Shown here: positions 6,722 to 27,661 of the stretch, in pieces
Position numbering within the stretch: position 1 is the stretch's first letter
Layout: each line of letters begins with the position of its first letter
Source of the DNA: a virus
Strand: one strand, 5' to 3'
IMG/VR virus record: IMGVR_UViG_3300035698_010668
Span: 1-34,553 of that record
DNA: 34,553 nucleotides
Notes under the pieces: generated by a model
Told to the model about the DNA's origin: nothing
Database searches by the model: none
What the model saw: the letters and a program-made list of their open reading frames with translations, nothing else
Program-made: the position numbers and the translations under genes

Positions 6722-7014
6722 AAGCCGACGACGCAATTCGAGAACTACGCGAGGCCCAGGAGGGGCAGGTCGACGTTCACGACCTGCTGCAGCACATCCT
6801 CATCGAGTTCGGCGGCAACGAGGGGATGGCCAAGATCCTCAAGAAGTGTTTCGACGCCGCTCCCGAGGGCTCCAACGTCCAGGCCAAGATTGCCAGCGAC
6901 ATTATGAAGCTGGTTCACTCCCTGACCACGGGCGAGGTGGACGACGGACTCTCCGAAGAGGACTTGGCGGCAGAGGCGGCGGCGCTGATGCGAGGTAACG
7001 ATGAAGGCGAGTGA
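6718..7014 (+). CDS. Putative terminase small subunit (by position)
   Basis: 98 aa, acidic and mostly helical: DDAIRELREAQEGQVDVHDLLQHIL, then GMAKILKKCFDAAPEGSNVQAK, then a Glu/Ala-rich end. It lies directly before the large terminase and overlaps it by 14 bases, the usual place of a DNA-recognising small terminase. No helix-turn-helix is obvious, so the label rests on position and size. A small structural or regulatory protein is the alternative. Confidence 0.45.
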   Translation: MKADDAIRELREAQEGQVDVHDLLQHILIEFGGNEGMAKILKKCFDAAPEGSNVQAKIASDIMKLVHSLTTGEVDDGLSEEDLAAEAAALMRGNDEGE

Positions 7015-8671
7015 GCTTGTCAATCTGAGCGACCGGTTGGGTGCGCCGAAGAAGACGCTTGATATGGTCCGCGTCAAGAAGTTGCTGACCCGGCTGCACA
7101 AGTTGCGGATGGAGGGGCTGAAGCTCTACACCTCCTGTCCCGTGCCCACCGCGTTCCACGAGTGCCGCAGCAAGTGGCGGATTCTGGACGGCTCCAACCA
7201 GAGCATGAAGACCACCACGGCCGCCGCCGAAGTGGCGCGGATTCTCATGGGGCTGGACCCCTACAAGAAGTGCCCCGAGAAGAACGGGCGGGCGATTGCC
7301 GTGGGGCTGGACTGGGCCCACGTAGGCGACCCGATGTGGCTGAAGCTGGGAGAGCAGGGGGCGTTCAAGGTAATCAAGGACGAGATCACCGGGCTGACGC
7401 GGTCGATCCGTCCCGACCCCAACGACCCGGCTAAGCTGGACCCCTACGACGAGGCCTATCGCGAGAAGTGGCAGGACGCCCCGCCGCTGTTGCCGGAACG
7501 GATGATCGAGACGATCGCCTGGGAGGACTCCCGCAAGCGGCAACCCAAGCTGGTGATTCTCAAGAACGGGTGGAGGATCGAGTTCCGCTCCTCGGAAGGT
7601 GCTCCCGCCCAGGGAAAAGTCTACGACCAGGGCTGGATCGACGAGCAGATTCTCCGCGGCGAGCACTACAAGGAAATGGCCCGCGGCCTGATGGCCCGAC
7701 GTGGAATCGGGATCTGGAGCGCCACGCCGCAAAACTGCAACCCGGAACTGTTGGAACTGCGAGAGCGGGCCGATGCCGGCGACGAGTTCGTCAGCGGGTT
7801 CCTGTTGCTGTTGGAGGACAACCCCTACATTCACCCCGACGAGAAGCGGGCCTACTTTGAGAGCCTCTCACCGGAGGAGCGGGCGGTTCGCTACTTCGGC
7901 GAGTACGCGCTGGTGGGGCGAAGGATCTATCCGAACTACAACCCGATGGGGATTCACGGCTGCGAGCCGTTCAAGATCCCCGACACGTGGTCCCGCTACG
8001 TGATCCTCGATCCGGCCAACCAATACCTCGGCACACTGTTCATTGCCGTGGACCCCGACGAAACGCACGTGTGGGTCTACGACGGGTTCATTATGCGGAA
8101 CGCGACCTCTGCGAAGTGGGCCGAGCGGGTCGCCGAGATGGAGGGCGACAACCGCTTCGAGGCGATGGTGATCGACCAGCGGATGGGCCGCCAGCGCCCG
8201 GTAGGCCCCTCGGACATGAAGAACGCAGCTTGCTACTACATGGACGCCCTGGAGGCGTGCGGCGTGAAACCCAACCGCCACGGCCCGCTGCACGGCTTCT
8301 ACCCCGGCACGGACGACGTGTACGCCCGCGAAGAGGCGGTGCAGGAGTGGCTCAGGCCCCGGCCGGACGGGCCGCTGGCGGGGAAGCCGGTGCTGCAAGT
8401 CTTCCGTGGCTGCCTCCCAGAACTCGACAAGCAGATCCGCAGCGCCCACTACCGGCTTGACAGGCCGGAAAAGCGCGAGATGACCATCACCTCCGACGCG
8501 CTCGACTGCCTTGAATACGCTGCTGCCTTCCGCCCGCGATACTTCGAGCCGACCCCCGTGGCCGCCGACGAAGAGGAGCCGGTGTGGCAGGCGTGGAAAG
8601 ACAAGCAGATGAAGGCCAAACAATCGAAACAACGTGACCTCCGTAACCGCCAGCTAGGAGCCCTTCGATGA
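7001..8671 (+). CDS. terL: Terminase large subunit (ATPase and nuclease)
   Basis: 556 aa. The N-terminal ATPase has a P-loop-like ILDGSNQSMKTT (61-72), Walker B around KVYDQGWIDEQ (206-216, with the catalytic acidic pair near its end) and the SATP coupling motif at 240-243. The C-terminal RNase H-like nuclease opens with YVILDPAN (Asp337), has a second acidic site in MVIDQRMG (Asp392) and a late TSDALDCLEYA acidic helix, giving the three-acid metal site. The protein drives DNA into the prohead and cuts it. The P-loop is unusual: Met69 stands where the family has Gly before the catalytic Lys70. It overlaps both neighbours (14 and 4 bases). Confidence 0.9.
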   Translation: MKASELVNLSDRLGAPKKTLDMVRVKKLLTRLHKLRMEGLKLYTSCPVPTAFHECRSKWRILDGSNQSMKTTTAAAEVARILMGLDPYKKCPEKNGRAIAVGLDWAHVGDPMWLKLGEQGAFKVIKDEITGLTRSIRPDPNDPAKLDPYDEAYREKWQDAPPLLPERMIETIAWEDSRKRQPKLVILKNGWRIEFRSSEGAPAQGKVYDQGWIDEQILRGEHYKEMARGLMARRGIGIWSATPQNCNPELLELRERADAGDEFVSGFLLLLEDNPYIHPDEKRAYFESLSPEERAVRYFGEYALVGRRIYPNYNPMGIHGCEPFKIPDTWSRYVILDPANQYLGTLFIAVDPDETHVWVYDGFIMRNATSAKWAERVAEMEGDNRFEAMVIDQRMGRQRPVGPSDMKNAACYYMDALEACGVKPNRHGPLHGFYPGTDDVYAREEAVQEWLRPRPDGPLAGKPVLQVFRGCLPELDKQIRSAHYRLDRPEKREMTITSDALDCLEYAAAFRPRYFEPTPVAADEEEPVWQAWKDKQMKAKQSKQRDLRNRQLGALR

Positions 8672-9069
8672 GCGAGAGTCAAGAATCCTTCCGTTTTCCC
8701 ACCGTCCAACCGGCCGACGGAATCCTCGTGGCCGGTCTGCCTGGCCAGCCGTGCCTGATGCCGGCGATCGTGATCAACGTCAACGACAGGTCCGTGTCCG
8801 CGTTGGGGATCCTCGACAACGGCTACCGTCCGTGGATTTGCCTGCGGCACAAGGACGACCCCTGGGTGGTCACGCATCCCGACTTCTGCGAGGACGGGGC
8901 CAACGGGGTGTTCGAGGTCGGTCCCACGATCAGGCGGCTGGAGCTGCTGGAACGGGAGGTTGTGGAGCTGAGAAGCATGGTCCGCGTCCCCGGGCGTTCC
9001 AAAGGCCCCAAGGACCCGAAGGACCCCAAGGACCCCAAGAAACCCGAAACCGACGAGGCGCCTGAATGA
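8668..9069 (+). CDS. Hypothetical protein with Pro/Lys/Asp repeat tail
   Basis: 133 aa between terminase and portal, with ATGA overlaps at both ends. Residues ~15-90 form a small domain rich in strands (ILVAGLPGQPCLMPAIVINV; WICLRHKDDPWVVTHPDFC), followed by a helix with heptad-like Leu/Glu spacing (RRLELLEREVVELRSMV), then a low-complexity tail made of repeated KDP triplets (GPKDPKDPKDPKKP). The helix could trimerise and the tail is probably disordered. No family recognised; conserved coupling to terL and portal suggests a packaging or head role. Confidence 0.6.
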   Translation: MSESQESFRFPTVQPADGILVAGLPGQPCLMPAIVINVNDRSVSALGILDNGYRPWICLRHKDDPWVVTHPDFCEDGANGVFEVGPTIRRLELLEREVVELRSMVRVPGRSKGPKDPKDPKDPKKPETDEAPE

Positions 9070-11054
9070 GCCTGTTGGAGAGTATCGTCTCGACTTGGAA
9101 CCGCCAGATCAAGCAGGCCGAGAAGGTCAAGGATCGGCGGTTCACCAAACAGGCCGAGGAGGCGTGGGACTACTACGACGCCTACGAGGGTCGCGAGATC
9201 CTGCTTGACGGCGAGAAGGAGTTTCCCGACGCCGACGAGGCGGAGCAGCAGCGGGTGACCTGCAATCTGGTCGCGCTCTACGCCCACACGTATCTGCCGT
9301 TTCTGCACCACAAGGTGCCGCATCGCCTCGTGACGCCGAGAGGGCCGGAGCTGCCGCCGGAGATTTTTGGGCTCCAGCCGGGCTCGCCCACCCCGCCCTC
9401 GCCGCAGGCGGTCCCCAACAAGACCCGCGCGGCGCTGTTGGAGTGGTGGTTGAACTACACGCCGCAGGAATTCGATCTCCGCCGCGAGGGCCGGAAGGCA
9501 TGTCTGGACGCGCTGATTTCGGGGCTCGGCGTGCTCGTCCACGAGGTCGTGGAGACACCTGCGGGGGAGATCGTCGGCAGCCGGGCGATCTCCTCGGCGG
9601 ACATCGTGTTCGACCCCGACGCGGTCGACGTGCGGCACGACGCGGGATGGATCGCGATCCGCCACCAGCAGAGCATTTACAAGATAGCCGAACAGTTCGA
9701 GGGCGTGGAGGCCAAGGACATCCGCACCGCCTACCGCTCGCACCGCAAGCTGGCCAACGACGAGGAGCCGGAGGAGCATCGCCAGACGCAGGAAGGCGAA
9801 GAACTCTCCGGCGACGTGGGGGTCTGGTGGGAGGTGTTCTCGCGGGTAGGGATCGGCGAGCGATTCGAGCGGACCGACGACGAGACGGCCGTCGAGATGC
9901 AGCGGCTCGTGGACACGCTGGGCGACTACGCGCGGATCTGCTTCGTGCCGGGGATGAAGTACCCGCTGAACCTGGCCCCGGCCTTGCTGGGCTCGCCCGA
10001 GCCAGAGCAGGTGCTGGATGGGTTGAAGTGGCCGATCGAGTTCTATCACGACCTGACCGATCCCTGGCCGGTGACGCTGTTCACGTTCTACGAATCGGAC
10101 GGCGGATATGGCGACGCCAAGAACCGCGACCCCTACCCCTACTCGCCGTTGCAACACGCGATGCCGCTGCAACGCTTCATCGACCAGAGTTACACGTTTT
10201 TGAAGCAGCACGTCAAGAGCGCCTGCCGCACGATCTACGTGGGCTCTGAGGAACTCGAAGAGGACGTGAAGGAGGGCTTGCTGAACGGGTTCCATAACGA
10301 ACTCGTGCAGATGAAGGGCAAGGCGGGCGTGGAACTGAAAAAGCTCCTGGACGTACTCCAGGCGCCCTCTCTCCAAAAGGATCTGCCGGAGTTCCTCGGG
10401 ATGGTCGTCTCCACGTTCCGAGAGATGACGGGGCTGAATGAGTTGATGTTCGGTGGCGGGGGCGGCAAGCAGATGCGGTCCAGCGCCGAGGCCCAGATCC
10501 GCCAGAGCAACCTGCAGATCAGGCCGGACGACATGGCGGAGTGCATCGAGGCCGCGCACTCGATGGCCGCTCGCAAGGAAGGCGGGGCCACCCGCTTGCA
10601 CGTGTCACCCGAGACGATCGCATTCGAGGCCGGCGAAGACCCCTCGGGGATGGCGGCCAACGCCCCGCTGTCGATGCTGTGGGGGAAACTCGTGACCGTC
10701 GAGGAGCCGTGGATGGCGTGGAGCGACGTGTGGTTCTCCGTGGAGGCCGGCTCGGGGCGGAAGAAGAACAAGCAGAAGCAGCTCTCCGACATGAACGACA
10801 CGGGGCAGAGCGTGCTGCCGATCATGATGGGCTACGCCCAGGCCACGGGCAACGTGCAGCAGGTCAACGCCTGGATGAAGACAATTTTGGGACCCGCCCT
10901 GGACATCGACGTGACGCCGATGCTGCTGTCGGGGATGCCGCCCCCGCCTCAGCCCGGCGCCGCTCCGCCCGGACAGGGACCACCGCAGGGACAGGGGCAA
11001 GGACCTCCGCCCGGACCTCCACAACAAGGACCCCCGCAAGGACCCCCACAATGA
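9066..11054 (+). CDS. Portal protein
   Basis: 662 aa, directly downstream of the terminase block. The N-terminus (LESIVSTWNRQIKQAEKVKDRR) is a helical stretch followed by FTKQAEEAWDYYDAYEG, which is a common opening of podovirus-type portals. DIVFDPDAVDVRHDAGWIAIR is the conserved 'fDPxA' segment of the wing/stem region. PLQHAMPLQRFIDQSY and the long helix ELVQMKGKAGVELKKLLDVL fit the stem and crown helices. The last ~50 residues are a Pro/Gln/Gly low-complexity tail (repeats of GPPQ). Twelve copies would form the DNA gate at one capsid vertex and bind TerL. The length is within the range of large portals. Confidence 0.85.
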   Translation: MSLLESIVSTWNRQIKQAEKVKDRRFTKQAEEAWDYYDAYEGREILLDGEKEFPDADEAEQQRVTCNLVALYAHTYLPFLHHKVPHRLVTPRGPELPPEIFGLQPGSPTPPSPQAVPNKTRAALLEWWLNYTPQEFDLRREGRKACLDALISGLGVLVHEVVETPAGEIVGSRAISSADIVFDPDAVDVRHDAGWIAIRHQQSIYKIAEQFEGVEAKDIRTAYRSHRKLANDEEPEEHRQTQEGEELSGDVGVWWEVFSRVGIGERFERTDDETAVEMQRLVDTLGDYARICFVPGMKYPLNLAPALLGSPEPEQVLDGLKWPIEFYHDLTDPWPVTLFTFYESDGGYGDAKNRDPYPYSPLQHAMPLQRFIDQSYTFLKQHVKSACRTIYVGSEELEEDVKEGLLNGFHNELVQMKGKAGVELKKLLDVLQAPSLQKDLPEFLGMVVSTFREMTGLNELMFGGGGGKQMRSSAEAQIRQSNLQIRPDDMAECIEAAHSMAARKEGGATRLHVSPETIAFEAGEDPSGMAANAPLSMLWGKLVTVEEPWMAWSDVWFSVEAGSGRKKNKQKQLSDMNDTGQSVLPIMMGYAQATGNVQQVNAWMKTILGPALDIDVTPMLLSGMPPPPQPGAAPPGQGPPQGQGQGPPPGPPQQGPPQGPPQ

Positions 11055-11625: not shown

Positions 11626-12807
11626 GTGGCACAACCCAGACTACTCACGTTTCGCGATGCAATCGACTACGCGGTGGAAATCGTTGCCGCCACGACCAGC
11701 GCTTCGCTGACGACGATCCGCGAGGCGATCGCGGCGGCCTACGACAACCTGCCCCAGGAGCACCACTGGCGAAGCCTCGTCCAGCCCGGGCGAATTCACC
11801 TCGTGGCCGCCGACTCGGACGGGACGGTTGAATACGACCACACCGGAAACGCCAGTGGCTACGAGCGCTACGTGACGCTCTCCGGCACGACGTTCCCCAC
11901 CGCCGCCGCGGACTACTACATCCGTATCGGCGACGACGTGTGTGCGATCGAGCAGTACGTGGACTCCACGCACTGCACGCTGGACGTACACCTCAATCCG
12001 GGCGCCGACGTCGACGCCGGCACGTCCGCCACGATCTTCCCCTCCTACTACCTGCTGCCGGCCGACTTCGACAGCTTCTCCGGGCCGTTCGGCGAGGACC
12101 TGTGGAGCGCGGCCGCGTACGTCGACCCCACGCGCTGGATGACGTTGACGCGCTACTGGGACGAGACGGGCTCGACCAGGTACTACTCGGTGCTGGACGC
12201 GGCCGACCTCTACAACCAGCCCGTGCTGGCGATCTGGCCCCCCAGCGACGCCGTGGAGACGCTGGACTTCATGTACACGCGGCGCCCCAGGCCGCTGCGA
12301 TATTCCGGGCACGACGCCACCAACGACACGGCGGGCACGATCAGCGTTACCTCGGGCAGTGCCACGGTGACCGGGAGCGGGACGGCGTTCTCCTCGGCGA
12401 TGGTCAACTCGGTGCTGCGGATCGGCACCGACTCCACGCACATCCCCACCCAACCGCATCAACTCTACCCATATAGTGAGGAGCGGACCGTCAAGGCCGT
12501 GGCCTCGGCGACCACGCTGACGCTGGACGCCAATGTGAGCACCTCGCAGGCCGCGGTCAAGTACGTGGTCTCCGATCCGATCGACATCCACCGCAACATG
12601 TACCGGGCGTTCCTGGCGCTGTGTGCGTCGGAGGTGGCCACGATCCGCAACGCGGAGAACGCGCGGATGCTGTACGCGGCCTACCAGACGGCGTTGGTCC
12701 GTGCCAAGCGTGGCGACACTCGCGTTCGCCAGCGCCGCGTGGTGGGCGGTCCGCAACGCATCCACACGAGGCTCAAAGACGGAGTGACAGTCAGTGACGT
12801 CGAATAA
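11626..12807 (+). CDS. Putative head-tail connector/adaptor protein with inserted beta domain
   Basis: 393 aa from GTG at 11626 (GGAGG five bases upstream). The N-terminus, TFRDAIDYAVEIVAATTSAS followed by a helix and NLPQEHHW, is the opening of phage adaptor/gatekeeper proteins that attach below the portal. The C-terminal helices (DIHRNMYRAFLALCASEVATIRNAENARMLYAAYQTALVRAKR) fit the rod-like helix bundle of such connectors. Residues ~238-320 are an inserted beta module (TVTGSGTAFSSAMVNSVLRI ... VASATTLTLD) also found in the 700-aa tail protein at 15122. It ends 14 bases inside the next ORF. Confidence 0.65.
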   Translation: MAQPRLLTFRDAIDYAVEIVAATTSASLTTIREAIAAAYDNLPQEHHWRSLVQPGRIHLVAADSDGTVEYDHTGNASGYERYVTLSGTTFPTAAADYYIRIGDDVCAIEQYVDSTHCTLDVHLNPGADVDAGTSATIFPSYYLLPADFDSFSGPFGEDLWSAAAYVDPTRWMTLTRYWDETGSTRYYSVLDAADLYNQPVLAIWPPSDAVETLDFMYTRRPRPLRYSGHDATNDTAGTISVTSGSATVTGSGTAFSSAMVNSVLRIGTDSTHIPTQPHQLYPYSEERTVKAVASATTLTLDANVSTSQAAVKYVVSDPIDIHRNMYRAFLALCASEVATIRNAENARMLYAAYQTALVRAKRGDTRVRQRRVVGGPQRIHTRLKDGVTVSDVE

Positions 12808-13275: not shown

Positions 13276-13733
13276 TGGAACGAGTCTTCCAGGGCGAGAC
13301 GATCGGGATTCACGTCGGCACCTACACGCCGACTGCGCACCCCAGCGCGCCGGGGGCGGCACACATCCCCGCCTGGCCCACGACGGCCCCCACGGTCTAC
13401 GTGTACCACGTGGAGGACACCACGGCCACGCAGTTGGTGGACGCCTCGATGGCCCGCCAGCACCAGCAGACGGGGCTGCACTACCACCTGCACAGGACGG
13501 AGCGGACGGGGGTCCATCTCGTTCGCTGCGAGTGGACCTCGGCGGGTGTGACGTGCGCTATCGCGTCGACCTTCAACGTGGTCGCCAACCCGGCCGACCC
13601 CGCCGGAAGCCTGGGCACGAGCCACGGCAGCGGGATGCTCGTTTCGATCTACGAGTTCGACCGCCCCGAGGTGACGCACATCGTGTGGGAGACGGACAAC
13701 GGGGAACTAGCAGCGAGGCCGAATCCAGCATGA
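13275..13733 (+). CDS. Small beta-rich virion-like protein (152 aa)
   Basis: It starts inside the upstream stop (TAATG). Strand-rich: ERVFQGETIGIHVGTYTPTA, TVYVYHVEDTTATQLVDASM, HYHLHRTERTGVHLVRCEW, ASTFNVVANPADPAGSLG. The layout is like the previous protein (a one- or two-domain Ig-like protein), so the pair may come from one another or build one complex. His and Gln are frequent in the middle (ARQHQQTGLHYHLH). It overlaps the ART-like gene by four bases. Confidence 0.6.
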   Translation: MERVFQGETIGIHVGTYTPTAHPSAPGAAHIPAWPTTAPTVYVYHVEDTTATQLVDASMARQHQQTGLHYHLHRTERTGVHLVRCEWTSAGVTCAIASTFNVVANPADPAGSLGTSHGSGMLVSIYEFDRPEVTHIVWETDNGELAARPNPA

Positions 13734-15121
13734 ATCTCTGGGACATCCTCAATGGCGCGATGTACGCACTGGACACTCCGGGGGCTCTTACCCGTGGCAC
13801 GCTGGCTGGAGATCCCGGCTCGCGGGCCAGCGGTCGGGAGATGCTGGAGGCATGGGGAGCACTGGATGCCAACACCGAGGGGCTCGACTGGGGTGATGTG
13901 GCTGGGTTTGGGGCAGACGTGATCGTCGACCCCCTTAATCTAATCCCCGGGATGGGCTTCGTGAAGACCGCCAAAGCCAGGCAGGCGGCGAAGGCGAGCA
14001 ACGCCCTGCGAGCGGAGCGGCTGGCCGCGGGCGGGATGCCCGAAGAGGTGGCGAGGCTGACCAAGGCACGACACCCGGCAGGGGCCAAGCAGTTGGTGGC
14101 CACCGACGAGGAGTTGGCTGCCGTGTTGCGTCAGCACAGCGAGATCGACAAGCCGACGAAGTGGGCCGACGAGGTGGAGTTTGACGCCGACGATCTGGTG
14201 CCGGCCGACGAGATGATGCCCAGATACAGCGACGAGTCCCTGGCTGGCCTCGCCCGCAACCTGCTTGGGAAACCGAGCGCCGGCGACAAGCGATACTTCG
14301 CGGCGGCGATCCCCGAGCTGCAGAAGCTGCAGAAGGAGACGGGCGGGCAAGTCAAACGGCTGTACCACGGCACGCCGGAAGCCTACGGGAAGGTAGACTT
14401 CGATGACCTCAACCCGGACGACTGGGTGCATGGGTACTTTACCACGGACAGCCCGAAGGTGGCGAGTGGGTACTCCGAGGGTGCCATGGCGCAGAGGCTT
14501 GTGTTGCCGTCAGGTGCGGACGTTGGCGAGACAGCAGGCAGGATCAGGAAGTTCTGGCGAGGGTTCAATGGGAAAAACGCCGGCAAGGGCATGTCCGACG
14601 AACAGGTGGTACACGATGTGCTCCGAGACATGAACACTGGGACGATCAGCGTGCCAGAATACAATCGTTTTCAGGAGCTGTTTGAAGAGGCCGTGCCGAC
14701 CTCCAACGTCCGTATGCAGCACCTTGACGTTCGCAATCCGTTTGATTTAGAGGCTTTGTACACTCCCGCTGAGGCCGAGAAGATTCTCAGAAGTGTTCCG
14801 TCCATCCCGGGAATCGCCGAACGAGAGATCGCAGGCTTCCCCGATTACGCGATGACGGGGCAACAGTTGATGGAAAAACTTCGCCCCGTCGCCAATCCGC
14901 TGGGGGTGGACACAGAGGCCCGCCTTGTCACCGACGCGCTTCAGTCCGCTGGCTACGACTCGCTCACACACATGGGCGGTGGTGGCGCGCACCAAGTCAC
15001 CGTCGCCTTTTCCCCCGAGCAAATCTACTCCCCGTGGATCGCCCCCGCGATGCAAAAGACACCCTCGTACATGCCGTGGCTGGCCGGCACCGCCGCCTAT
15101 CACTCCGTCCCGAGCTACTGA
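13730..15121 (+). CDS. Virion protein with ADP-ribosyltransferase-like (ART, polyvalent-type) domain
   Basis: 463 aa from the coupled ATG at 13730. Residues 1-80 form a module (ALDTPGALTRG ... GADVIVDPLNLIPG) that recurs at the N-terminus of the 1246-aa protein. Residues ~208-435 look like an ART domain of the polyvalent-protein type: RLYHGTPEAYGKVDF (His213) for strand 1, HGYFTTDSPKVASGYSEG for the 'YFT...A..Y' motif, and GYDSLTH ... HQVTVAFSPEQIYS for the end of the fold. Such domains transfer ADP-ribose from NAD to a target; in phages they are thought to be ejected with DNA and to act on host proteins. Activity is inferred. The position between virion genes supports packaging in the particle. 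Confidence 0.65.
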   Translation: MNLWDILNGAMYALDTPGALTRGTLAGDPGSRASGREMLEAWGALDANTEGLDWGDVAGFGADVIVDPLNLIPGMGFVKTAKARQAAKASNALRAERLAAGGMPEEVARLTKARHPAGAKQLVATDEELAAVLRQHSEIDKPTKWADEVEFDADDLVPADEMMPRYSDESLAGLARNLLGKPSAGDKRYFAAAIPELQKLQKETGGQVKRLYHGTPEAYGKVDFDDLNPDDWVHGYFTTDSPKVASGYSEGAMAQRLVLPSGADVGETAGRIRKFWRGFNGKNAGKGMSDEQVVHDVLRDMNTGTISVPEYNRFQELFEEAVPTSNVRMQHLDVRNPFDLEALYTPAEAEKILRSVPSIPGIAEREIAGFPDYAMTGQQLMEKLRPVANPLGVDTEARLVTDALQSAGYDSLTHMGGGGAHQVTVAFSPEQIYSPWIAPAMQKTPSYMPWLAGTAAYHSVPSY

Positions 15122-17224
15122 ATGGCACGCATCAAAACCGGATTGAACGCTTGGCAGCCCGTCGTGATGGTTCGCGGACCCAGCGGCCACCTGTTCGCCT
15201 ACAACGGCCTGGATCGCGGCCAGCGATGGAACGGCCAGGACGCCGTGAGTGAGGACGCGGGGATCTCGCCCAGCGCCACCGCCCCCACGGCGACCGCCGA
15301 CGGCAACGGCTCGCTGTACGGCACGTACCAGATGTACGTGCGGTTCCTGGACGACGAGAGCATCCCAAGCAACTTCTCCGACGTGTACGCCTCGCTGACG
15401 TTGACCTCGGGGGCCGCCTGCGAGACGATCCTCTACACCGACGTGCCGACTTCCTCGGAGTCGCGCGTCACACAACGCCAGATTTGGAGGAATACGGACG
15501 GGCAGATCACCACGTTCTGCCTGGACGCCACGATCGCCGACAACACCACCACCACCGCCTCCTCGACCAACAGCGACGACGACCTGGAAGACAACGACTC
15601 ACTTAGGTACCTGACCGAGGACGGCTGGCCCAACGCCAACCGGTTTGGTGTCCCGCCCAACTACATGAGCGTGTGTGTCAACTTCCGCAATCGGCTCTGG
15701 TGGCTGGTTCCCGTGCCCTACAGCGAGGGCTCGATTACCTCGATCTCAGGCGTCACAGTGACGGCGGCGGGCACCAACTTCACCTCGGCGATGGTGGGCC
15801 GCAAGCTGTTCCTCTCAGGGAGCCTGGCGGGCACGATCTTGACGGTCGACTCGGCGACCACGCTGACGCTCTCCGCGGCGCCGGCCGCGGGCTACGGCGG
15901 CGCCCTGGAGCACTACGCGATCTATCCGGCCGAGGACATGCGCAACGCGGTCATGTTCTCCGAATGGAACGAGCCGGAGAGTGTGGCGGTCAACGACGAC
16001 GACGAGGTCGTCAACCAGTGGACGCTGCAGGAGGACGGCGACCAGTTGACCGGGGCGATCCCCGTGCGAAGCTACCTGTTCCTGCTGAAGAACCGCTTCA
16101 TCTACAGGCTCTCGACCAACGGCGACCCCCGCAACGACTGCCAGGTGGCCCAGGTAGCCGAGCGCGGCTGTCTCAACCAGCAGAGCTGGTGCCGCGTGGA
16201 GGGGCTGGCGTTTTTGATGGACAAGCAGGGCCCGTACCTGTTCGATGGCTCGGCGATCCAGGACATCGGCACGGCGGTGTGCGACTACTGGCGCGAGAAG
16301 ATCGTCTGGAAGAACCGAAAGCACTTCCATGTCCGCCACTGCCCGGACCTGGAGTGCGTGCGATTCTTCGTCTGCCTGGACGGCTCGGACAGGCCGAGAC
16401 ACGCACTGGAGTTCAACTACCGCCGTCGCGTGTGGACGGAGATCGAGTATCCCGTCCCGATCGGGGCCTCTTGTGCGACCGACATCCAAGGCAAGCGGCG
16501 GCTGATCGCGGGGGCCGACGCGCAGGTCGTGTTGCTGGACGAGGGCGTGCTGGACGGGGCCTCGCCCACCGCCTCGCACCAGACCGACCGGCTCGACTCG
16601 TGGGGTGACGGGACACTGGCCGGGACCGTGACCGCCGCCACGCGGTACTCGATCAGCGACAGTGCCGCCACGCTGGACTTCTCCACGGACCTGGAGCACT
16701 CCGGGGTGATCGGTTCTCCGCTGTACGTGATCGACTCGGACGGCAACTGGCAGAGGCGGCGGATCTGCGAGATCGACGACAAGACGCTGATCGTGGCCCA
16801 GCCGTTCACCACGCAACCATCGGTAGGCGACACCTATCATGTGGGTGGGATCGACTATCGGGTCAAGCTGGGCACGTTCCCCTATCGCCAGCAGGAGACG
16901 GACAACTCCAGGGACGTGGGTGTGTGGTTCGAGCCGCTGGACGAGACGGCCACGCTCAACGTGAGGCGATACCACAATCACTCGGATACGCCTCAGACCC
17001 ACCAGATCAGCAAGGATTTTCAGGATGGCTACACGGTCACGGCGGCCAGCCCCAACGGCAAGATCGACCTGACCGAGGCGACGGGGTTTGTGGAGGCCCG
17101 CGAGGCGGGGCACCTGGAGCAGGGCGTGCCGGCCAACCGCGTGGTCGACGTGGAACTCAAAGGTGTGGCGGGGCAGGAGGCGGTGAAACTGCACGGCGTG
17201 GACCTGGAGGGTGTCGATGGATAA
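15122..17224 (+). CDS. Large tail protein, probably beta-propeller (tail tubular B/stabilisation-like)
   Basis: 700 aa. The N-terminus (IKTGLNAWQPVVMVRGPSGH, then YNGLDRGQRWNG) and repeated blade-like segments such as FSEWNEPESVAVNDDDEV, PVRSYLFLLKNRFIYRLS, GLAFLMDKQGPYLFDGS and RHALEFNYRRRVWTEIEYP suggest a propeller or nozzle protein that closes the neck or tail of short-tailed phages. Residues ~200-270 hold the same inserted beta module as the connector (TVTAAGTNFTSAMVGRKLFL ... VDSATTLTLS). The stop lies inside the next gene (8-base overlap). Naming by fold is inference; relatives are usually called tail or virion proteins. Confidence 0.65.
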   Translation: MARIKTGLNAWQPVVMVRGPSGHLFAYNGLDRGQRWNGQDAVSEDAGISPSATAPTATADGNGSLYGTYQMYVRFLDDESIPSNFSDVYASLTLTSGAACETILYTDVPTSSESRVTQRQIWRNTDGQITTFCLDATIADNTTTTASSTNSDDDLEDNDSLRYLTEDGWPNANRFGVPPNYMSVCVNFRNRLWWLVPVPYSEGSITSISGVTVTAAGTNFTSAMVGRKLFLSGSLAGTILTVDSATTLTLSAAPAAGYGGALEHYAIYPAEDMRNAVMFSEWNEPESVAVNDDDEVVNQWTLQEDGDQLTGAIPVRSYLFLLKNRFIYRLSTNGDPRNDCQVAQVAERGCLNQQSWCRVEGLAFLMDKQGPYLFDGSAIQDIGTAVCDYWREKIVWKNRKHFHVRHCPDLECVRFFVCLDGSDRPRHALEFNYRRRVWTEIEYPVPIGASCATDIQGKRRLIAGADAQVVLLDEGVLDGASPTASHQTDRLDSWGDGTLAGTVTAATRYSISDSAATLDFSTDLEHSGVIGSPLYVIDSDGNWQRRRICEIDDKTLIVAQPFTTQPSVGDTYHVGGIDYRVKLGTFPYRQQETDNSRDVGVWFEPLDETATLNVRRYHNHSDTPQTHQISKDFQDGYTVTAASPNGKIDLTEATGFVEAREAGHLEQGVPANRVVDVELKGVAGQEAVKLHGVDLEGVDG

Positions 17225-18980: not shown

Positions 18981-19628
18981 ATGGGAATTCCTAGCATTCT
19001 TGGTCTTGCCGGAGGGCTTGTCGGGGGCCTGTCTGGAGGAGGCTTCCAACAGTCTAGCGGAGGGGCCCCGCCGCCTATTCAATTAACCAATGCAGACGCG
19101 AGGTCAATCAGGAATATGAACAGCTACGGACAACAGCAATCCCCGATGGGCCTCCAGCAGTACATGCAGGGGATTCAACAGGGGCAACAGCAAAACCAGC
19201 AGAACCAGCAGGCGCAGGGCCAGCAGCAGATGGCCGACGCCTACCGCTACATGTCGGACAACAACCGCATGGCCTCCAACCGCCAGGCTTCGGCCTCTGA
19301 GTTTGGGGCTGCAATGCAACCGGAGGTGGCGGGCATCCAAGCCCAGAGTTCGCTGGCCGACTCGGTCACGGGACTGCAAGGGACGCTGGCGCAGGCCAAC
19401 GCCAAGATGCAGACCGACCCCCTGAACTCGCTGGCCTCGATGTACGGATCGAACATGAACGCCGTGGCCGGGCAGAACATCGCCGAGATGCAGAACCGGG
19501 CGAGGATGCAGAGCCTGCAACAGATCCTCGGGTCGATCGGGCCCATGATGGGCGGGATGGGCGGCGGGATGGGCGGCGCCCCTAATATCAACACCAACTA
19601 CGGAGCCGGCGTAAGCTGGGGACAATAA
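18981..19628 (+). CDS. Gly/Gln-rich internal-virion-like protein (215 aa)
   Basis: GGAGG at 18970-18974 fixes the ATG at 18981. The N-terminus is small and hydrophobic (GIPSILGLAGGLVGGLSGGG) and could be a membrane-active segment. Residues ~45-75 are nearly pure Gln (QQYMQGIQQGQQQNQQNQQ), the middle is Ala/Gln helical (SEFGAAMQPEVAGIQAQSS ... LAQANAKMQTD), and the C-terminus is Gly/Met-rich (MMGGMGGGMGGAP). Internal ejection proteins of short-tailed phages have similar hydrophobic-helical layouts. First of four Gln-rich genes in a row. Confidence 0.55.
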   Translation: MGIPSILGLAGGLVGGLSGGGFQQSSGGAPPPIQLTNADARSIRNMNSYGQQQSPMGLQQYMQGIQQGQQQNQQNQQAQGQQQMADAYRYMSDNNRMASNRQASASEFGAAMQPEVAGIQAQSSLADSVTGLQGTLAQANAKMQTDPLNSLASMYGSNMNAVAGQNIAEMQNRARMQSLQQILGSIGPMMGGMGGGMGGAPNINTNYGAGVSWGQ

Positions 19629-20287
19629 TGTCGTATACCGACGCGCAACAGAATCAACCGTGGGGTTATCAGGGGTGGGCGCACAATGTCGCGCAGAACC
19701 CCAACACCATGAACTACGACGATCATGGCGTGCGGGGGATTCGCGGGGGGCCGTCGCAACTTCCCCAGCAACAACAGGCCCCGCAGACGCAGGCCTGGGA
19801 CTACATCGACGCCAATCAGTACCAGACCCAGCCGCAGTTGACTGACATGGACTACATGCAGAACATGCTGGGGCTGTTGAACCCGGTGGCGGGGATGGAC
19901 AGCTACGGGCAGTACGGCGACGGAAGCACGCAGCAGGCAGCCGGCGGCGGGCAGCAAGCCCCGCAGCAGAACATGAACGTGCAGGCGGGAATCACGCCGC
20001 CGCAAATGGCGCAGCCGGGGATGGGCACGCCGCAGATGGCGGGGTTGAGTCCGATGGGCGGATCGGGCTACGACGCTCAACTGGCGGCCCAGCAGGCACC
20101 GATGCAGCAGCAGTTGATGGCCCAGTATTACCCGGCCATGGCGGGGCTGCAGGGCGCCTTTCAGCAGGCACAGGCGCAAAGCGGTCTTGGCTGGGGTGGC
20201 CTCGGTAGCCAGGCCAACCAGGCGCAGCAGGGCTACCAGACGGCGATGCAGAACAACCTGTTGAGCCTGCTGGGAGGACTGATATGA
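19628..20287 (+). CDS. Gln-rich low-complexity virion-like protein (219 aa)
   Basis: The ATG shares one base with the upstream TAA. Long Gln, Pro, Met and Tyr tracts run throughout (LPQQQQAPQTQAWDYID; QAPQQNMNVQAG), ending in a helical tail with YQTAMQNNLLSLLGGLI. The next gene ends in a very similar tail (SNNLAQQGGLLGLLSGL), so the two may be old duplicates. Prion-like composition would suit condensate-like packing in a virion, but this is speculation. No enzyme motif. Confidence 0.55.
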   Translation: MSYTDAQQNQPWGYQGWAHNVAQNPNTMNYDDHGVRGIRGGPSQLPQQQQAPQTQAWDYIDANQYQTQPQLTDMDYMQNMLGLLNPVAGMDSYGQYGDGSTQQAAGGGQQAPQQNMNVQAGITPPQMAQPGMGTPQMAGLSPMGGSGYDAQLAAQQAPMQQQLMAQYYPAMAGLQGAFQQAQAQSGLGWGGLGSQANQAQQGYQTAMQNNLLSLLGGLI

Positions 20288-21114
20288 ACTGGAACACGGG
20301 CGGCAACCAGGGCGGCTGGGGACAGCAGCCCAACACGAACACGTGGGGCGGGGGGCGCAACCAGCAGTCCTCTTGGGGCTCTCCGGCGATGACCCAGGCG
20401 GGCAACGCGGCCGGGCAGATCATCAACACGATGACCGGCCAGCCAGTGCCACAGGACCAAGTGGCGATCCAGGTCAACGGCATCGCTCCCACGCCGCAGC
20501 AGAACGCCTTCCAGCAGGACGCCCTGCAGCAGACGATGCAGCAGTACGGTTCCTCGCCCGAAGACATCCAGGCACAATTGCAGGCCCGCAACGCCTACCA
20601 GGGCAACCTCCAGGGGGGCGGCACGGTTCCGCAGCCCAACCCGAACATGGGGATTCCCGGTGGGACCGGTGCGCAGGGACCAGCCGCGCCGGGGGGCGGA
20701 GACCTGATGAATACGCTCAACGCCAACTCCTCGATCCAACCCCAGGGCGTCTATCCCGACCAGTTCACTCAGCAGATGCAGCACATGGCCCGCGCCCTGG
20801 GCCAGCCGTCGATGAACAGCCTCGGCGTGGCCCGCGGCCAGGAAGGGATGAGCGGGGCCTCCCCGGCGGGCCAGTACGGGATGGGGATCGACGCCGCCAA
20901 CCAGCTCTCGCAGGCCGCCTACGCCCCGGCGCAGATCGGCCTGCAACACCAGCAGGCCAACCAGCAGAACATGATGCAAGGCCAGCAGGCCCGAGACCAG
21001 GAGGCCCAGGGCTGGGCGGGGCTTGGCGTGCAGAACTATCAGAACCAACTCAGTAACAACCTCGCGCAGCAGGGCGGTCTTCTGGGCCTGCTGTCGGGTT
21101 TGAATCAGTGGTAA
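20284..21114 (+). CDS. Gln/Asn-rich virion-like protein (276 aa)
   Basis: ATGA overlap with the previous stop. It opens with Trp/Gly/Asn/Gln repeats (WNTGGNQGGWGQQPNTNT) and continues with Gln-rich helices (NAFQQDALQQTMQQYGSS), a Pro/Gly linker, and a C-terminal stretch GLGVQNYQNQLSNNLAQQ leading to a hydrophobic tail GGLLGLLSGLNQW. The tail resembles that of the 219-aa protein. Probably a virion component; function unknown. Confidence 0.55.
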   Translation: MNWNTGGNQGGWGQQPNTNTWGGGRNQQSSWGSPAMTQAGNAAGQIINTMTGQPVPQDQVAIQVNGIAPTPQQNAFQQDALQQTMQQYGSSPEDIQAQLQARNAYQGNLQGGGTVPQPNPNMGIPGGTGAQGPAAPGGGDLMNTLNANSSIQPQGVYPDQFTQQMQHMARALGQPSMNSLGVARGQEGMSGASPAGQYGMGIDAANQLSQAAYAPAQIGLQHQQANQQNMMQGQQARDQEAQGWAGLGVQNYQNQLSNNLAQQGGLLGLLSGLNQW

Positions 21115-21126
21115 GGAGGAGCAGAG

Positions 21127-22713
21127 ATGACTCAATTTCCGTCCTTAATTGCGCAGGTGCTCAGGGCGATGCCGCAGATCCAAATGCCTCCAATGCCACA
21201 ACCGGCTGTTCCCGTGGGTGATCCGCAGGAGGAGTTGTTTCGCCACATGCAGGCGAATCCGGGTGGGTGGGCAGTTCCGCAGGACCCGATCCCCGACAGG
21301 TTTCGGGAGATGGTCGACCCCGCTGGCTACCCCGGGATGCAGGCCCAAGACCCGTTTGGGCAGATGCCCGTCACGCAGTATCCGCAGATGGCCGGAACGA
21401 TGCAGGCCGAGGCCCCGTTCGGTCAACCGCTGACCGTTCCGGTCCCCGGCACCGACCTGACGGCAAGGGTGGCCGAGACAAACCCGATGGGCGGGATCAC
21501 GCAGCCGGACCTGATGCGTGCCCTGGACATGGCCGATGCGCGATACGGCCCCCAGGCGGCAAGGGCCAACGAACTCGCCGCCGGTTCGGCCCTCACGCAG
21601 CAGGTCAGTGGACCGCTGGGGATGACCAGTGAGCAGTACGCGGCGGGGCAGCAGCAGTACGAACGGGAGAAGGCGGCAAGGCTGGCTGGCATTCAGGGTG
21701 GAGCACCACCCGCAACGCCCGGCACGCAGTTCAACACGATGGAAGATGAGGTCGCTCGCGGGAACGCAGCCCGGCCACCTGCCGTTGCCCCGCCCAAGAT
21801 GCCGGATGCTGCTGGGATGGCGAGGGCGCTAAACGACCGAGCCGAGGCCCAGACCTCCAAACCTTACGGCGAGGGGACGCTGTCGATCGAGACGAAGCCG
21901 ATCGGTGCAAGTGGGCAGGCCGGGCCGGGGAAAACGACCGCCGCAGGCCATCGCGCCGAGGTGCAGAACGATCCCGCCTACCAGGCGTACCTTGCTGCGG
22001 CGCGGGCGGGCAACGCGATGCCCGACCAGAGCCAGCGGCCGGACATGCCCAACCTGTACATCGGGCCGAGCGCAGGGAACGCCACTCCTGGACCAGCCAA
22101 GCCGACGCCGGAACAGGTTGCCACAAACAAGCAGGACCGGCAGGACGAGTTGGCCTCCCGCCAACAGAACCTGGAGGCGAAGAACCGCGGGATGACCCCC
22201 GAGTTGATGAACGTGCTTCAGGTCGCGGCAAGCGGAGGAACACTGACGCCCGGCCAAGCATCCTTGATTAATCCGCAGCTCGGGGCTGTGGCAATGCAAC
22301 AGCAGGGAAGAGACCCACTGCTGGAGGCCCTCGTGGCCGCGCAGACTCCAGAGGCTGCGGCGGCCATTCAGGCTCGCATCCAAGCCCAAAATGCTGAGAG
22401 GACACGAGCTGATCTGGCGTCTCGTCGCACTGAATCCGCCGAACAGGGCGGGGACTTGCACGAGAAGACGCGGGCAGAACTCAACGCAATGACTCCAGGG
22501 CCCAACGGGCGACTTCCGTACAAAGACTTCAAGGCGAAGGCGACTGCCGCCGGTTACTCGCCGGAAGAGGTGCGGCAGTTTGCGTGGGCCGACCCAGAGT
22601 ATCGGGAAGAGGTTCAATGGGAAGATGCGAGCGCGGCAGGAGCACCGTGGTACCACCGACCGCTTATGACAATAGGGAAGGGCGTGTCCGACGTCGTTGA
22701 TCTGTTCAAGTAG
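21127..22713 (+). CDS. Pro/Gln/Ala-rich virion-like protein (528 aa)
   Basis: AAGGAGG lies ahead of the ATG at 21127. The N-terminal part is Pro/Met/Gln-rich (PQIQMPPMPQPAVPVGDPQE), the middle is disordered-looking with Ala/Pro/Gly, and the C-terminal 150 residues become helical and charged (AAAAIQARIQAQNAERTRADLASRR) before a compact end (YKDFKAKATAAGYSPEEVRQF; WYHRPLMTIGKGVSDVVDLF). It closes the + structural operon before the antiparallel gene. Candidate internal-virion or tail-assembly protein. Confidence 0.5.
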   Translation: MTQFPSLIAQVLRAMPQIQMPPMPQPAVPVGDPQEELFRHMQANPGGWAVPQDPIPDRFREMVDPAGYPGMQAQDPFGQMPVTQYPQMAGTMQAEAPFGQPLTVPVPGTDLTARVAETNPMGGITQPDLMRALDMADARYGPQAARANELAAGSALTQQVSGPLGMTSEQYAAGQQQYEREKAARLAGIQGGAPPATPGTQFNTMEDEVARGNAARPPAVAPPKMPDAAGMARALNDRAEAQTSKPYGEGTLSIETKPIGASGQAGPGKTTAAGHRAEVQNDPAYQAYLAAARAGNAMPDQSQRPDMPNLYIGPSAGNATPGPAKPTPEQVATNKQDRQDELASRQQNLEAKNRGMTPELMNVLQVAASGGTLTPGQASLINPQLGAVAMQQQGRDPLLEALVAAQTPEAAAAIQARIQAQNAERTRADLASRRTESAEQGGDLHEKTRAELNAMTPGPNGRLPYKDFKAKATAAGYSPEEVRQFAWADPEYREEVQWEDASAAGAPWYHRPLMTIGKGVSDVVDLFK

Positions 22714-23074: not shown

Positions 23075-26000
23075 ATGGCTCTAGCACCATTACCACCGCT
23101 TCCCAGCCTAACCCACATCACCACCCCACGCAAGAGGCGGCACTCCACACCTGCGCAAATGCCCAATCAGGATGAGGAGAGCAGCCTGCTGGGGTCGGTG
23201 ATGGGTGGGCTGGAGTTTGCAGCCCTGACGCTGGACAAGCCGGGGGCTGCCGCGCGCGGGCTGATCTCCGGGGCAATGGGTGGACCCTGGGGTGGGGGGC
23301 TATTGAACCTCGTGCCGTTCTCGGACACGGTCGGGATCACTCGGCCGGACGAAAGGGTGTGGGGGCGGGACCTCGTCGAGCAGATGGGGGGGAGGAAGAA
23401 TAAGCCAGGCATCCTCAACACGTTCACGGACCCCACGGAGTTCGCCCTCGACACGGCGGGGCTGGGGCTGGAAGTCTTCACCGACCCCTTGATCTTGTTG
23501 ACGGGGCCAGGGAAGTCGCTGACGGCCAAGGGGATCAAGGCCTCCAAGCGGGTGGCCCCCAGGCTGGAGAAGGTTGCCGGCACGCTGGAAGCGGCGCTGG
23601 GCGGCGTGAGCCACAAGCTGGGCACGACGCCGATCGCCAAGGCCGACGAGATCGGCCAGGGCCTGCGGGGCGTGATGGGTCTGAAGGTCCCGTTCGCCAA
23701 GAACGCCTTCGCCACGTTCGGGGCCGGCAGCGAGACGGCGGCCAAATACTACGAGAAGTTGATGTATGCCCCTGGAGTGCGTCATTGGCGGTCCCTGTGG
23801 GCGCCGTCACTGCAGGGCATCTCTCATCCAGAAGGTGCCCGCGTGGCCGACAGGCAGTGGCACAAGCTGCACCAGGTGTCCGGGGCGATGGAGGACATGA
23901 TTCCCACGTTCCAGGAGTCGCAGAAGCGGCTGATGGGAGAGTTCGAGACGCTCTCAAAGCACCTCAGAACCACGGCCAACAAGGCGGGGGCCGACGAGTT
24001 CGACGCGCTGGTGAGGCATCTTGGCGAGACGTTCCCGATGATCGAGGGCAAGATGTCGCTGACGGCGGCCGACGTCAAGGGGATGCTGGTTCTTCCGCCT
24101 GGGATCGACATCGAAAAGCAGGCCGGTCGGTTCTCGGCGGAGTTGGCTACCTACATTGACCAGTTTCACCAGGTTAAGGACACGCTGTGGAGCAGGGCTC
24201 AAGACCTGGGGATCAAGGGGGAGTGGTTGGACGACGCGTTCGCGAGCCACGTCCCCCGTGGGCTCGACAAGCAAATGAAGGGGGCCCTGGACGGGATCCG
24301 CAGCCGGATGATGCTCAACACCCGCAACCCCAACGCGATCCGTCGTGCCGGGTCCCTGACTGACATGCCGGGGGCGACACTCGGCATCAATCGCGGTGCG
24401 ATGCACCCGTTCCACGGGGCGCTGTCCTCGGCGCCGAGGTCGAAAAACGTCACCAAGCCCACCATGGAGGGCGTCAAACAGGAGTTGTTCGCGGGCGTAT
24501 GGGCGGAAGTTCCCGGGACCGATAAGTTCGGCAGGATCCTGAAAACGTCGCCCAAGTCGGCCACGCTCCAGCAGATGAGCCACGACGGGAAGTACAGCGT
24601 GGAGGCGTTCAACCTCGCCGACTTGCGGCCGATGGACGCGGTCCCACCCAGCGCGATGGAAGCGATGCCTTCCATGCCCGTGCCGCAGCAGCAGACGTTG
24701 AAGGAACTCAAGGCCTGGTACCGGGCCAAGTACGGGGCCACCAAGGGCGTCTCGCTTCAGGAGATCAAGCGGCAGAACTACTTCGACGAGATCACGCTGC
24801 CGGCGATCAAGGAAAACAACGCGGCGGCGGCGATCAGCACGGCGGTAAAGCCGGACGGAACCAAGGCGATCCAGCATATCCCCGAGGTTCTCACCCCGGA
24901 CCTTGCGGACCAGTTGGATGTCACCATCCGACACCTCAACCGCCTCCCCGACAACGTGAGACAGAAGGGGCTGTTCACCAAGAGCTACGTGGAGGACCTG
25001 TTCGGCTACATGCACCACGCGGCGGAGAACATCGCCAACGCGGAAGTGATGCACGGGTTTCTGGGGCAGGCGTCGCGGAACATGGTTAAGGACCGGGTCC
25101 CGCTCAAGGACTCGGAGTTGTCGCTGGGCGATTCGTGGATGCGGACCGTGGGGACGGACGGCAAGCCCGCCCTGAACCACGAGGGGCTGCGGACGTTTAT
25201 GACGCGCAAGGGCGAGAAGGGTCTACCCGAGATCCCGAAGATGCCAAGAGAGAAGGATCTACTGGCGGCCGGGGTTCCGCAGGAGGAGATCGCCAAGGAG
25301 ATGGGCCTTGCACGCGATGCGATCGAGTCGGCCAAGGGAGTGATCCAGCAGCGTGCCGCCAACTACGCCGTCGACCGCAAGGTGACGGGGGCCCTGAACA
25401 CCTACGTGCAGGCAATGGACCCCAAGATGGAAGGCTTTCTGGCGGAGACATTCCGCGAATGGACGGCGGTCTGGAAGGCCAGCGCGACGACCATCTGGCC
25501 CGCGTTCCACATCAGAAACCTCGTGGATTCGGCGATCTTCCGCAATTGGGCCAGCGCCGGGAGTTCGTTCCCGATGTTCGGCAAGAACGGGCTAGTGCAG
25601 GCCAACCGCGAGTTCTGGAGGTTTGCCCGCGGCAAGGCATCGCTGGAGATGCGCGAGGAGATCGAGGCGATCGGACTGCTTTCCAACAGTCGATTCTGGG
25701 ACTCGGTGGGCGAGGTGGCCGGGGAAGCCGTCGAGGGTGCCGGTCGCGTGCCCACGCTGGCTGGGTTCAAGGTGAGCAAGGATGCGATGAAGGAGCCCGG
25801 GGCGCTGAACATCTTCAACATCCTTGGCGGGCCGAAGAAGGTCCCCACGCTCCGGCATCCGATCAAGGGCGCCAAGTACGCCACGCAGAACGTGTCGGCC
25901 AAGCTCGGGCAACAGGCGTTCGAGACGATCGAGGCCGCGGCAAGGGTGCCGGCCTACATCGCGCTCAGGCGCAACGGGTTTAGTCCGAGCCAGGCCAAGC

Positions 26001-26815
26001 TGTGGGTCAACACGGTCCACTTCGACTACTCCAAGGTCTCGCCGTTCGGTCGCAAGGTTCGCAAGGTCGTGCCGTTCTACGGATTCCTCTCAAACAACCT
26101 GCCTTACCAGATCAAGAGCCTCTTCGACCGCCCCGGGGGTCGCCACGCGCAGACGCTGCGGACGATCGCCGCCTTGCACCGCGAGGGTGGGACCTACCTG
26201 CCGGCCTGGATGCGCGAGAAGGTGGGGCTGCCAATGTCCACCGACGAGGAGGGCCGCACGCAGGTGATCCGCCAGTTGGGGCTCTCGATCGAGGACCTGG
26301 GCAATTACCAGTTCGAGGGCGGACACCCGGTCACGCGGCGTTCGGGAGAGAGGCTGCTGGCCCAGACGCATCCGCTGCTCTCGGCGGGCTACAAGCTGCT
26401 GTCCCAGCGCGACCCGTTCACCGGCCGGGACCTGAACTCGATGTACGGGCTGACCGGCAACACCACGGCCGACACCGCGATTCAGACGCTGCCCTACGCG
26501 CGGGCCCTGAGTGAGAGCCGCGTGGTCACCGACATTGCCTCGGGGCGGAAGTCCGGCCCGGTGGCGATCGGCGACTTCCTGACGGGGGTCAAGGTCGGGA
26601 CCTACGACCTGGAGGCGTGGCGGGCCATCGACCAGCAGCGGTTGCTCAGGCGGCTGATGGAAGAGAGCCCCGAGATCGGCACGCTGGAGGTGCCCTACGC
26701 GCGGGACAAGGAGGCGATCAGTCCCGATGCGGCTCGGAACCTGGAGATGTATCGGGCTCTCCAGGCAGCACTGTCGAAAGGTAGGGAAAAGCGCAAGGCG
26801 GGAGCCGCAAAGTGA
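23075..26815 (+). CDS. Large internal-virion/polyvalent-type protein (1246 aa)
   Basis: The N-terminus (~40-150) carries LDKPGAAARGLISG ... LGLEVFTDPLILLTGPG, a module shared with the ART-like virion protein. It continues in long amphipathic helices; around residue 808 it has WPAFHIRNLVDSAIFRNW, a motif I associate with internal virion and large polyvalent proteins, and around residue 998 KVVPFYGFLSNNLPYQIKSL. No signal peptide, no cysteine protease motif seen. Likely packed in the head and ejected with the DNA. The start is uncertain: the ATG at 23075 has no ribosome site upstream (its leader holds CCTCCTT, the antisense of the minus gene's site), and the ATG at 23159 would align better with the paralogue. 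Confidence 0.65.
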   Translation: MALAPLPPLPSLTHITTPRKRRHSTPAQMPNQDEESSLLGSVMGGLEFAALTLDKPGAAARGLISGAMGGPWGGGLLNLVPFSDTVGITRPDERVWGRDLVEQMGGRKNKPGILNTFTDPTEFALDTAGLGLEVFTDPLILLTGPGKSLTAKGIKASKRVAPRLEKVAGTLEAALGGVSHKLGTTPIAKADEIGQGLRGVMGLKVPFAKNAFATFGAGSETAAKYYEKLMYAPGVRHWRSLWAPSLQGISHPEGARVADRQWHKLHQVSGAMEDMIPTFQESQKRLMGEFETLSKHLRTTANKAGADEFDALVRHLGETFPMIEGKMSLTAADVKGMLVLPPGIDIEKQAGRFSAELATYIDQFHQVKDTLWSRAQDLGIKGEWLDDAFASHVPRGLDKQMKGALDGIRSRMMLNTRNPNAIRRAGSLTDMPGATLGINRGAMHPFHGALSSAPRSKNVTKPTMEGVKQELFAGVWAEVPGTDKFGRILKTSPKSATLQQMSHDGKYSVEAFNLADLRPMDAVPPSAMEAMPSMPVPQQQTLKELKAWYRAKYGATKGVSLQEIKRQNYFDEITLPAIKENNAAAAISTAVKPDGTKAIQHIPEVLTPDLADQLDVTIRHLNRLPDNVRQKGLFTKSYVEDLFGYMHHAAENIANAEVMHGFLGQASRNMVKDRVPLKDSELSLGDSWMRTVGTDGKPALNHEGLRTFMTRKGEKGLPEIPKMPREKDLLAAGVPQEEIAKEMGLARDAIESAKGVIQQRAANYAVDRKVTGALNTYVQAMDPKMEGFLAETFREWTAVWKASATTIWPAFHIRNLVDSAIFRNWASAGSSFPMFGKNGLVQANREFWRFARGKASLEMREEIEAIGLLSNSRFWDSVGEVAGEAVEGAGRVPTLAGFKVSKDAMKEPGALNIFNILGGPKKVPTLRHPIKGAKYATQNVSAKLGQQAFETIEAAARVPAYIALRRNGFSPSQAKLWVNTVHFDYSKVSPFGRKVRKVVPFYGFLSNNLPYQIKSLFDRPGGRHAQTLRTIAALHREGGTYLPAWMREKVGLPMSTDEEGRTQVIRQLGLSIEDLGNYQFEGGHPVTRRSGERLLAQTHPLLSAGYKLLSQRDPFTGRDLNSMYGLTGNTTADTAIQTLPYARALSESRVVTDIASGRKSGPVAIGDFLTGVKVGTYDLEAWRAIDQQRLLRRLMEESPEIGTLEVPYARDKEAISPDAARNLEMYRALQAALSKGREKRKAGAAK

Positions 26816-27455: not shown

Positions 27456-27458
27456 TGG

Positions 27459-27554: not shown

Positions 27555-27567
27555 GGGCTACTCCTGT

Positions 27568-27648: not shown

Positions 27649-27661
27649 GTGTACGGGGAAG

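Follow-up and report, generated by a model that had tools for sequence, protein, structure and literature searches.

The DNA analyzed (hereafter, the window) is the IMG/VR virus record IMGVR_UViG_3300035698_010668 over its whole length of 34,553 bases. On its plus strand, positions 13730..15121 encode a 463-residue protein in which an N-terminal LDxPG-containing module precedes an ADP-ribosyltransferase (ART)-like domain. This frame is a real gene, as seen from the open frame, the Pfam and independent profile matches, and its junctions. Its ATG overlaps the preceding stop codon as ATGA, and its TGA directly abuts the ATG of the next gene; therefore, the gene and its neighbors are taken to form one unit. 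GC content peaks at codon position 3 in this gene and in the neighbors measured, unlike in the in-frame upstream extension to 13028 (0.76/0.73/0.53 by codon position), which was rejected as coding. The window also encodes a major head protein (2729-3844; PHROGs match to phrog_9953), a terminase (7001-8671), a portal protein (9066..11054, plus strand; phrog_156, E 9.3e-10) and, immediately downstream of the ART-like gene, a virion structural protein (15122..17224, plus strand; phrog_3287, E 3.4e-9). The initial annotation placed the gene inside the tail gene block, a fair description of its position between the portal and virion structural protein genes. No foreign origin is claimed from base composition, because the GC3 of 0.77 lies below the value of about 0.87 in many neighbors, yet other genes of the record are equally low.

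Several further features of the window were noted. The products of 11626-12807 and 15122-17224 contain a similar stretch (SGSATVTGSGTAFSSAMV... and SGVTVTAAGTNFTSAMV..., respectively), followed by SATTLTL in each, and appear to share a beta domain; in the former product, the SGSATVTGSGTAFSSAMV stretch matches PHROG tail-fibre families. The 15122-17224 protein had no relatives among phages and none in four further records. The left end (119-919) encodes a family 2 glycosyltransferase, and the right fifth (27000-34553) contains few convincing plus-strand frames, so that its genes may be on the other strand. The relatives search using the 463-residue protein, the terminase, the module, the ART pair, and the C-terminal alignments returned no relatives; a second DNA pattern search gave no match, and a plasmid search gave none.

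The N-terminal module (LDxPG...GFGADVIVDPL; residues 1-99; 13730..14026, plus strand) recurs within the same genome. A second copy (23183..23592, plus strand, with LDxPG at 23231), delineated by local alignment, occupies the N-terminal region of a 1246-residue protein encoded at 23075..26815 on the plus strand. Residues 1-110 of the ART protein align with this region with a local score of 101, compared with at most 63 in 1000 shuffles, and score at most 45 against 18 other proteins of the record. The LDxPG module singled out in the initial annotation is thus real, occurring twice in the record, and the common stretch spans approximately 85-130 residues. The two genes are not adjacent. PHROGs and profile scans found no named family for the 1246-residue protein, and a relatives search with it returned one weak phage record, whose protein matched itself alone. 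From its late place in the structural block and from its homologues, we infer that it is a putative large ejection protein. Four consecutive Gln/Gly/Met-rich or low-complexity frames precede its gene (18981-22713), the first starting with a glycine-rich hydrophobic stretch; their products may be smaller ejection proteins.

Outside the window, the module was found in the viral contigs L108-L111. Among the fetched contigs, a two-sequence module profile matches L108-L111 with E-values of 5e-5 to 1.3e-4. When six records were searched, the module profile matched the three that belong to L108-L111 (E 1.6e-7 to 5.4e-7) but not the remaining three, and the score between the ART-protein module and the L108 copy was reached in 0 of 500 shuffles. 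A four-row profile, applied to 81 records (80 of them ART-bearing viral contigs), gave four strong matches, which include the source records of two of its own four rows, as well as two weak ones; the 75 records without a match indicate that the module is not a general partner of ART-PolyVal. The module was not above background in profile searches of the Vibrio phages K385 and JSF7 or of MW202803, and an L129/L130 match (E 0.003-0.006), located in C-terminal helices, was judged to be due to chance.

L108-L111 each carry a protein of 1797 or 1801 residues (two variants) with the module near its N-terminus and an ART-PolyVal domain at residues 842-1017 or 846-1021 (95.6 bits in the one variant scanned). 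The ends of this protein are homologous to the 1246-residue protein of the window (E 5e-20 for the C-terminal and 3e-6 for the N-terminal part). The portals of L108 and L111, the two tested, are homologous to the portal encoded at 9066-11054 (E 3.0e-50 and 2.2e-50, respectively; 28% identity), and these two contigs have one ART each. The one-chain proteins and the portal homology indicate that kin of this phage carry the ART inside a large protein, whereas here it has its own gene and its own copy of the module. In L110 (2484-7868, read as 1795 residues), a HELGH stretch downstream of the ART suggests a zincin-type peptidase, perhaps a second effector; Pfam gives the ART alone.

A front end like that of the phage's large, probably injected protein suggests that the ART protein is loaded into the particle and delivered with the DNA. 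We tentatively regard the module as a loading or delivery tag, a reading somewhat short of even odds. Alternatively, it may carry no packaging signal and instead insert into or cross the host membrane, the protein being part of an ejected channel on which the ART domain rides along. In favor of this alternative, the most hydrophobic 19-mer of both module-bearing proteins falls within the module; its mean hydrophobicity of 1.24 is, however, modest for a membrane span. The gp16 protein of phage T7 is described as having membrane-inserting regions (PMC8954989). A membrane role would be compatible with a packaging role, and we consider the membrane-only reading rather unlikely.

The ART-like domain comprises residues 204-437 (14339..15040, plus strand), as defined by profiles, a 131-row alignment, and the predicted fold. 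The initial annotation proposed a profile search for ART-PolyVal and a structure prediction. A Pfam scan of the 463-residue protein returned one family, ART-PolyVal (PF18760), with an E-value of 6.5e-6 and 27.4 bits, below the gathering cut-off of 31.2 bits; we therefore term the domain an ART-PolyVal-like divergent relative and do not file it as a PF18760 member. In a six-frame search, the profile was matched in two ordered pieces (positions 3-48, then 82-132), which are separated by a long insert in the protein. A profile of 11 phage ART sequences, built without the 463-residue protein, scores it at 37.8 bits, whereas the best of 2000 shuffles reached 5.2. With the protein alone as a query, tblastn against 50,697 phage records retrieved 20 Vibrio phage records (E 5e-6). 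The protein of Vibrio phage K385 itself scores 37 bits with Pfam ART-PolyVal, above the cut-off, when searched in six frames with neighbors in frame, and 28.9 bits, just below it, as a whole protein; that of JSF7 scores 28.5 bits. The four motifs that had been named are all present in order, starting at residues 212 (YHGT), 236 (YFTTD), 408 (GYDSLTH), and 425 (VAFSPEQI). The ART-like identity is therefore borne out by profile, relatives, and predicted fold, and we regard the homology and fold as nearly certain. Polyvalent proteins, as characterized in PMC5512222, combine several effector domains in one chain and occur where an invasive element would deliver them. By Pfam and PHROGs, the protein has one recognized effector domain plus the module and is encoded among virion genes.

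Among other records encountered, a pattern match in L004 was out of frame and due to chance, and H41 showed only weak similarity, confined to a glycine-rich stretch. Three genome contigs (L047, L054, and L056) contain four, three, and three separate ART-PolyVal stretches, respectively, and L047 and L056 both come from one Saccharibacteria MAG. The 39-kb phage record PQ492659.1, with a gene of more than 9 kb, is filed under Inoviridae and looks misclassified.

In the AlphaFold prediction of the full protein with 88 relatives, the model was good across the ART region but poor across the N-terminal half (mean pLDDT 63.9), and the prediction of the ART domain alone with 75 relatives gave a pLDDT of 78.9 and a pTM of 0.67. 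A Foldseek search of the PDB gave a single match under 1e-3, the chain 9k3a_B (entry title 'Cyanophage A4 pre-ejectosome'; E-values of 7.8e-4 and 7.0e-4), and VIA-align superimposed the models on this chain with Z-scores of 10.8 (161 residues, rmsd 3.3) and 10.9 (166 residues, rmsd 4.0). The rows that follow it among the best 50, with Z-scores of at most 7.2, are mostly known ARTs, including MbcT, tankyrases, diphtheria toxin, PARP1, and an anti-CRISPR protein; a Z-score near 7 is by itself no proof of fold. The proposed structure prediction thus returned an ART fold, and since ART relatives in the alignments guided the models, the fold supports the family assignment and does not independently prove it. 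A profile of alignment A6 searched against PDB sequences gave weak matches (E 0.024 and up), and 9k3a is not among the matches listed.

The conserved residues were examined in an ART alignment of 131 rows. Its source was 188 ART frames in 172 loci; 50 frames with a matched span outside 90-260 residues were left out, the remaining 138 were deduplicated, and JSF7 and the 463-residue protein were added. His213 (codon 14366..14368, plus strand) is located in the model strand 211-215, corresponding to strand 1, and is His in all 131 rows. The strand-2 column contains Tyr in 77 rows, Phe in 34, Trp in 12, His in seven, and Met in one, and is occupied by Phe237 (codon 14438..14440, plus strand), as placed by the alignment column and the spacing to Ala245. 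This eight-residue distance is kept in 120 of the 131 rows, indicating that Tyr236 lies one place too early and that Phe237 is the aligned aromatic residue. Asp410 (codon 14957..14959, plus strand), at the start of the model strand 411-416, is Asp in 129 of 130 rows. Of the two residues proposed for mutation in the initial annotation, His213 holds, Tyr236 gives way to Phe237, and Asp410 had been missed. The Glu column preceding VAF, considered by presumed analogy with Glu988 of PARP1, was rejected as the third catalytic residue in favor of Asp410, because only 53 of 130 rows contain Glu and the present protein has Val423. The predicted active site is accordingly His213-Phe237-Asp410. According to Iyer and colleagues, ART-PolyVal carries His in strand 1, Tyr in strand 2, and Asp in strand 5 (PMC5512222). 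The first and last are found here as His213 and Asp410, and the strand-2 Tyr is absent, Phe237 occupying its column.

The 463-residue protein is probably an active enzyme. Of the 131 rows, 76 have the triad H-Y-D and 33 have H-F-D, the second commonest, which suggests that Phe is tolerated. Caution about activity comes from Val423 and from Tyr433, whose column is Lys in 128 of 131 rows. These departures, together with Phe237 and a pre-ejectosome structural chain as the best match among solved structures, could point to a packaged pseudo-enzyme, whose ART fold would play a structural or binding part in the ejection machine without catalysis. Retention of both His213 and Asp410, along with the frequency of H-F-D, argues against such a loss of catalysis, and we judge it unlikely.

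The closest ART relatives, from Vibrio phages K385 and JSF7, reside inside proteins of 1528 and 1683 residues. These proteins are T7 gp16-like, their PHROGs match being phrog_342 ('internal virion protein with endolysin domain'; E 3.7e-60 for K385 and 6.4e-79 for JSF7). The genes immediately after theirs carry the annotations tail fiber protein and pectin lyase. In a FastTree phylogeny, the 463-residue ART groups with those of K385, JSF7, and L129 with a support of 0.911, while the placement within the four has a support of 0.026. The L129 ART frame encodes 1215 residues and is followed by a frame that appears tailspike-like by eye; PHROGs gave it no named function. Sequence identity to the ART of the 463-residue protein is 33.0% for K385, 26.7% for JSF7, and 24.8% for L110, and several others are as close, such as Caulobacter phage JessA (35.0%). 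With weak support, the ART here looks like a separate acquisition rather than the product of simple splitting of a large protein.

The operon position, the T7 gp16-like relatives, the pre-ejectosome fold match, and the module common with the 1246-residue protein all favor packaging, and the ART protein is likely packaged and ejected. If it were instead made late and left unpackaged, it would act in the phage-producing cell. Its place among late genes fits that reading too, and some phage ARTs, such as ModA and ModB, are stand-alone intracellular enzymes according to PMC9503650. However, the module recurs on the large 1246-residue protein, the nearest relatives are fused into internal virion proteins, and L108-L111, from kin phages, have the fused form; an unpackaged protein is thus improbable. 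That the motif order arose by chance with no ART present is rejected: the Pfam match lies under the cut-off and ART relatives in the input alignment steered the structure prediction, but the tblastn match obtained with the protein alone and the independent profile score far above all shuffles leave this practically no probability.

Overall, we lean toward a virion-loaded, ejected ART encoded by its own gene, with the N-terminal module of an ejection protein as its delivery tag. In the pathway that we infer, the ART protein would be made together with the head and tail proteins, and the module would recruit it to the assembly of ejection proteins within the capsid. The protein would leave with the ejection proteins and the DNA at infection, and its ART domain (His213, Phe237, and Asp410) would then use NAD+ to ADP-ribosylate a host factor, most likely something that would hinder early infection. 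More broadly, the LDxPG...GFG.D...DPL module may be a transferable tag for virion loading and ejection in short-tailed phages, corresponding to the capsid targeting sequence of T4 and carried both by a large ejection protein and by an effector that was acquired separately; we place this reading a little below even odds. The same tag on both proteins would mean that effectors can join the injected set either by fusion, as in L108-L111 and perhaps A-4L, or through their own copy of the tag, as in this phage. To our knowledge, little is known outside T4-like phages of how effectors are marked for loading or ejection. A module present on both an effector and a second protein of the same genome, together with the one-chain relatives, provides a concrete, testable signal. 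Should the module work on a reporter, sequence searches could pick out injected effectors, and experiments could address how short-tailed phage particles are loaded.

That phages package ARTs is a known theme, based on prediction, and such ARTs in virions are predicted to be widespread. In the survey of PMC9503650, approximately 44% of phage ARTs had contexts suggesting packaging. The exchange of domains among ejection proteins is also described (PMC8954989). In the open-licence literature searched, which did not include the A4 structure paper, no report was found that joins packaged ARTs to an N-terminal module shared with an ejection protein. The present protein resembles ART-PolyVal, as characterized in PMC5512222, in motif order, predicted ART fold, the strand-1 His and strand-5 Asp, and predicted virion delivery. 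It differs in its sub-threshold score, Phe in place of the strand-2 Tyr, and the long insert between the two halves. It is also encoded by a stand-alone gene with an ejection-protein module, whereas 111 of the 174 ART frames examined, some of them cut by contig ends, encode at least 1500 residues. The K385 and JSF7 internal virion proteins contain the closest ART domains found and share the strand-2 Phe; unlike here, the ART lies inside a much larger chain in which the module was not detected. L108-L111 share the N-terminal module, the homologous ejection-protein body, an ART-PolyVal domain, and the homologous portal (tested for L108 and L111). They differ in having one chain in place of two genes, and their ART is canonical and not the nearest relative of the 463-residue one.

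The best fold match offers a further comparison. The 9k3a_B sequence is ORF27 of Anabaena phage A-4L (cyanophage A4) over residues 1-1717, with YHGT at 1424 and GTYFS nearby. Its ART was undetected by Pfam and by pairwise sequence comparison, in which 356 of 500 shuffles scored as well. Residues 353-396 contain a module-like AGFGLDTILDP with a score of 6.7 bits, whereas the 71 shuffles reported out of 200 did not exceed 2.3. Against ORF27, the L108 module copy scores 58, above the maximum of 54 among 500 shuffles, and the score of the ART-protein copy was reached by three of 500 shuffles; the 1246-residue protein's copy gave no such match, with 46 of 500 shuffles as good. ORF27 is therefore alike in fold, YHGT, and the module-like stretch, and unlike in its 1717-residue length, its sequence-undetected ART, and the weakness of its module similarity. 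For phage T4, Alt is described as a packaged, injected ART of the R-S-E clade (PMC5512222), a clade distinct from that considered here, and N-terminal capsid targeting sequences are described as directing internal proteins into the prohead (PMC5694885). The T4 targeting sequences are propeptides of 10-20 residues that a prohead protease removes, whereas the module, at approximately 85-130 residues, is not a short N-terminal propeptide of the T4 type. The comparison with T4 is one of way of working: T4 has a packaged, injected ART and an N-terminal targeting sequence common to several internal proteins (PMC5512222, PMC5694885), and a counterpart of each is proposed here.
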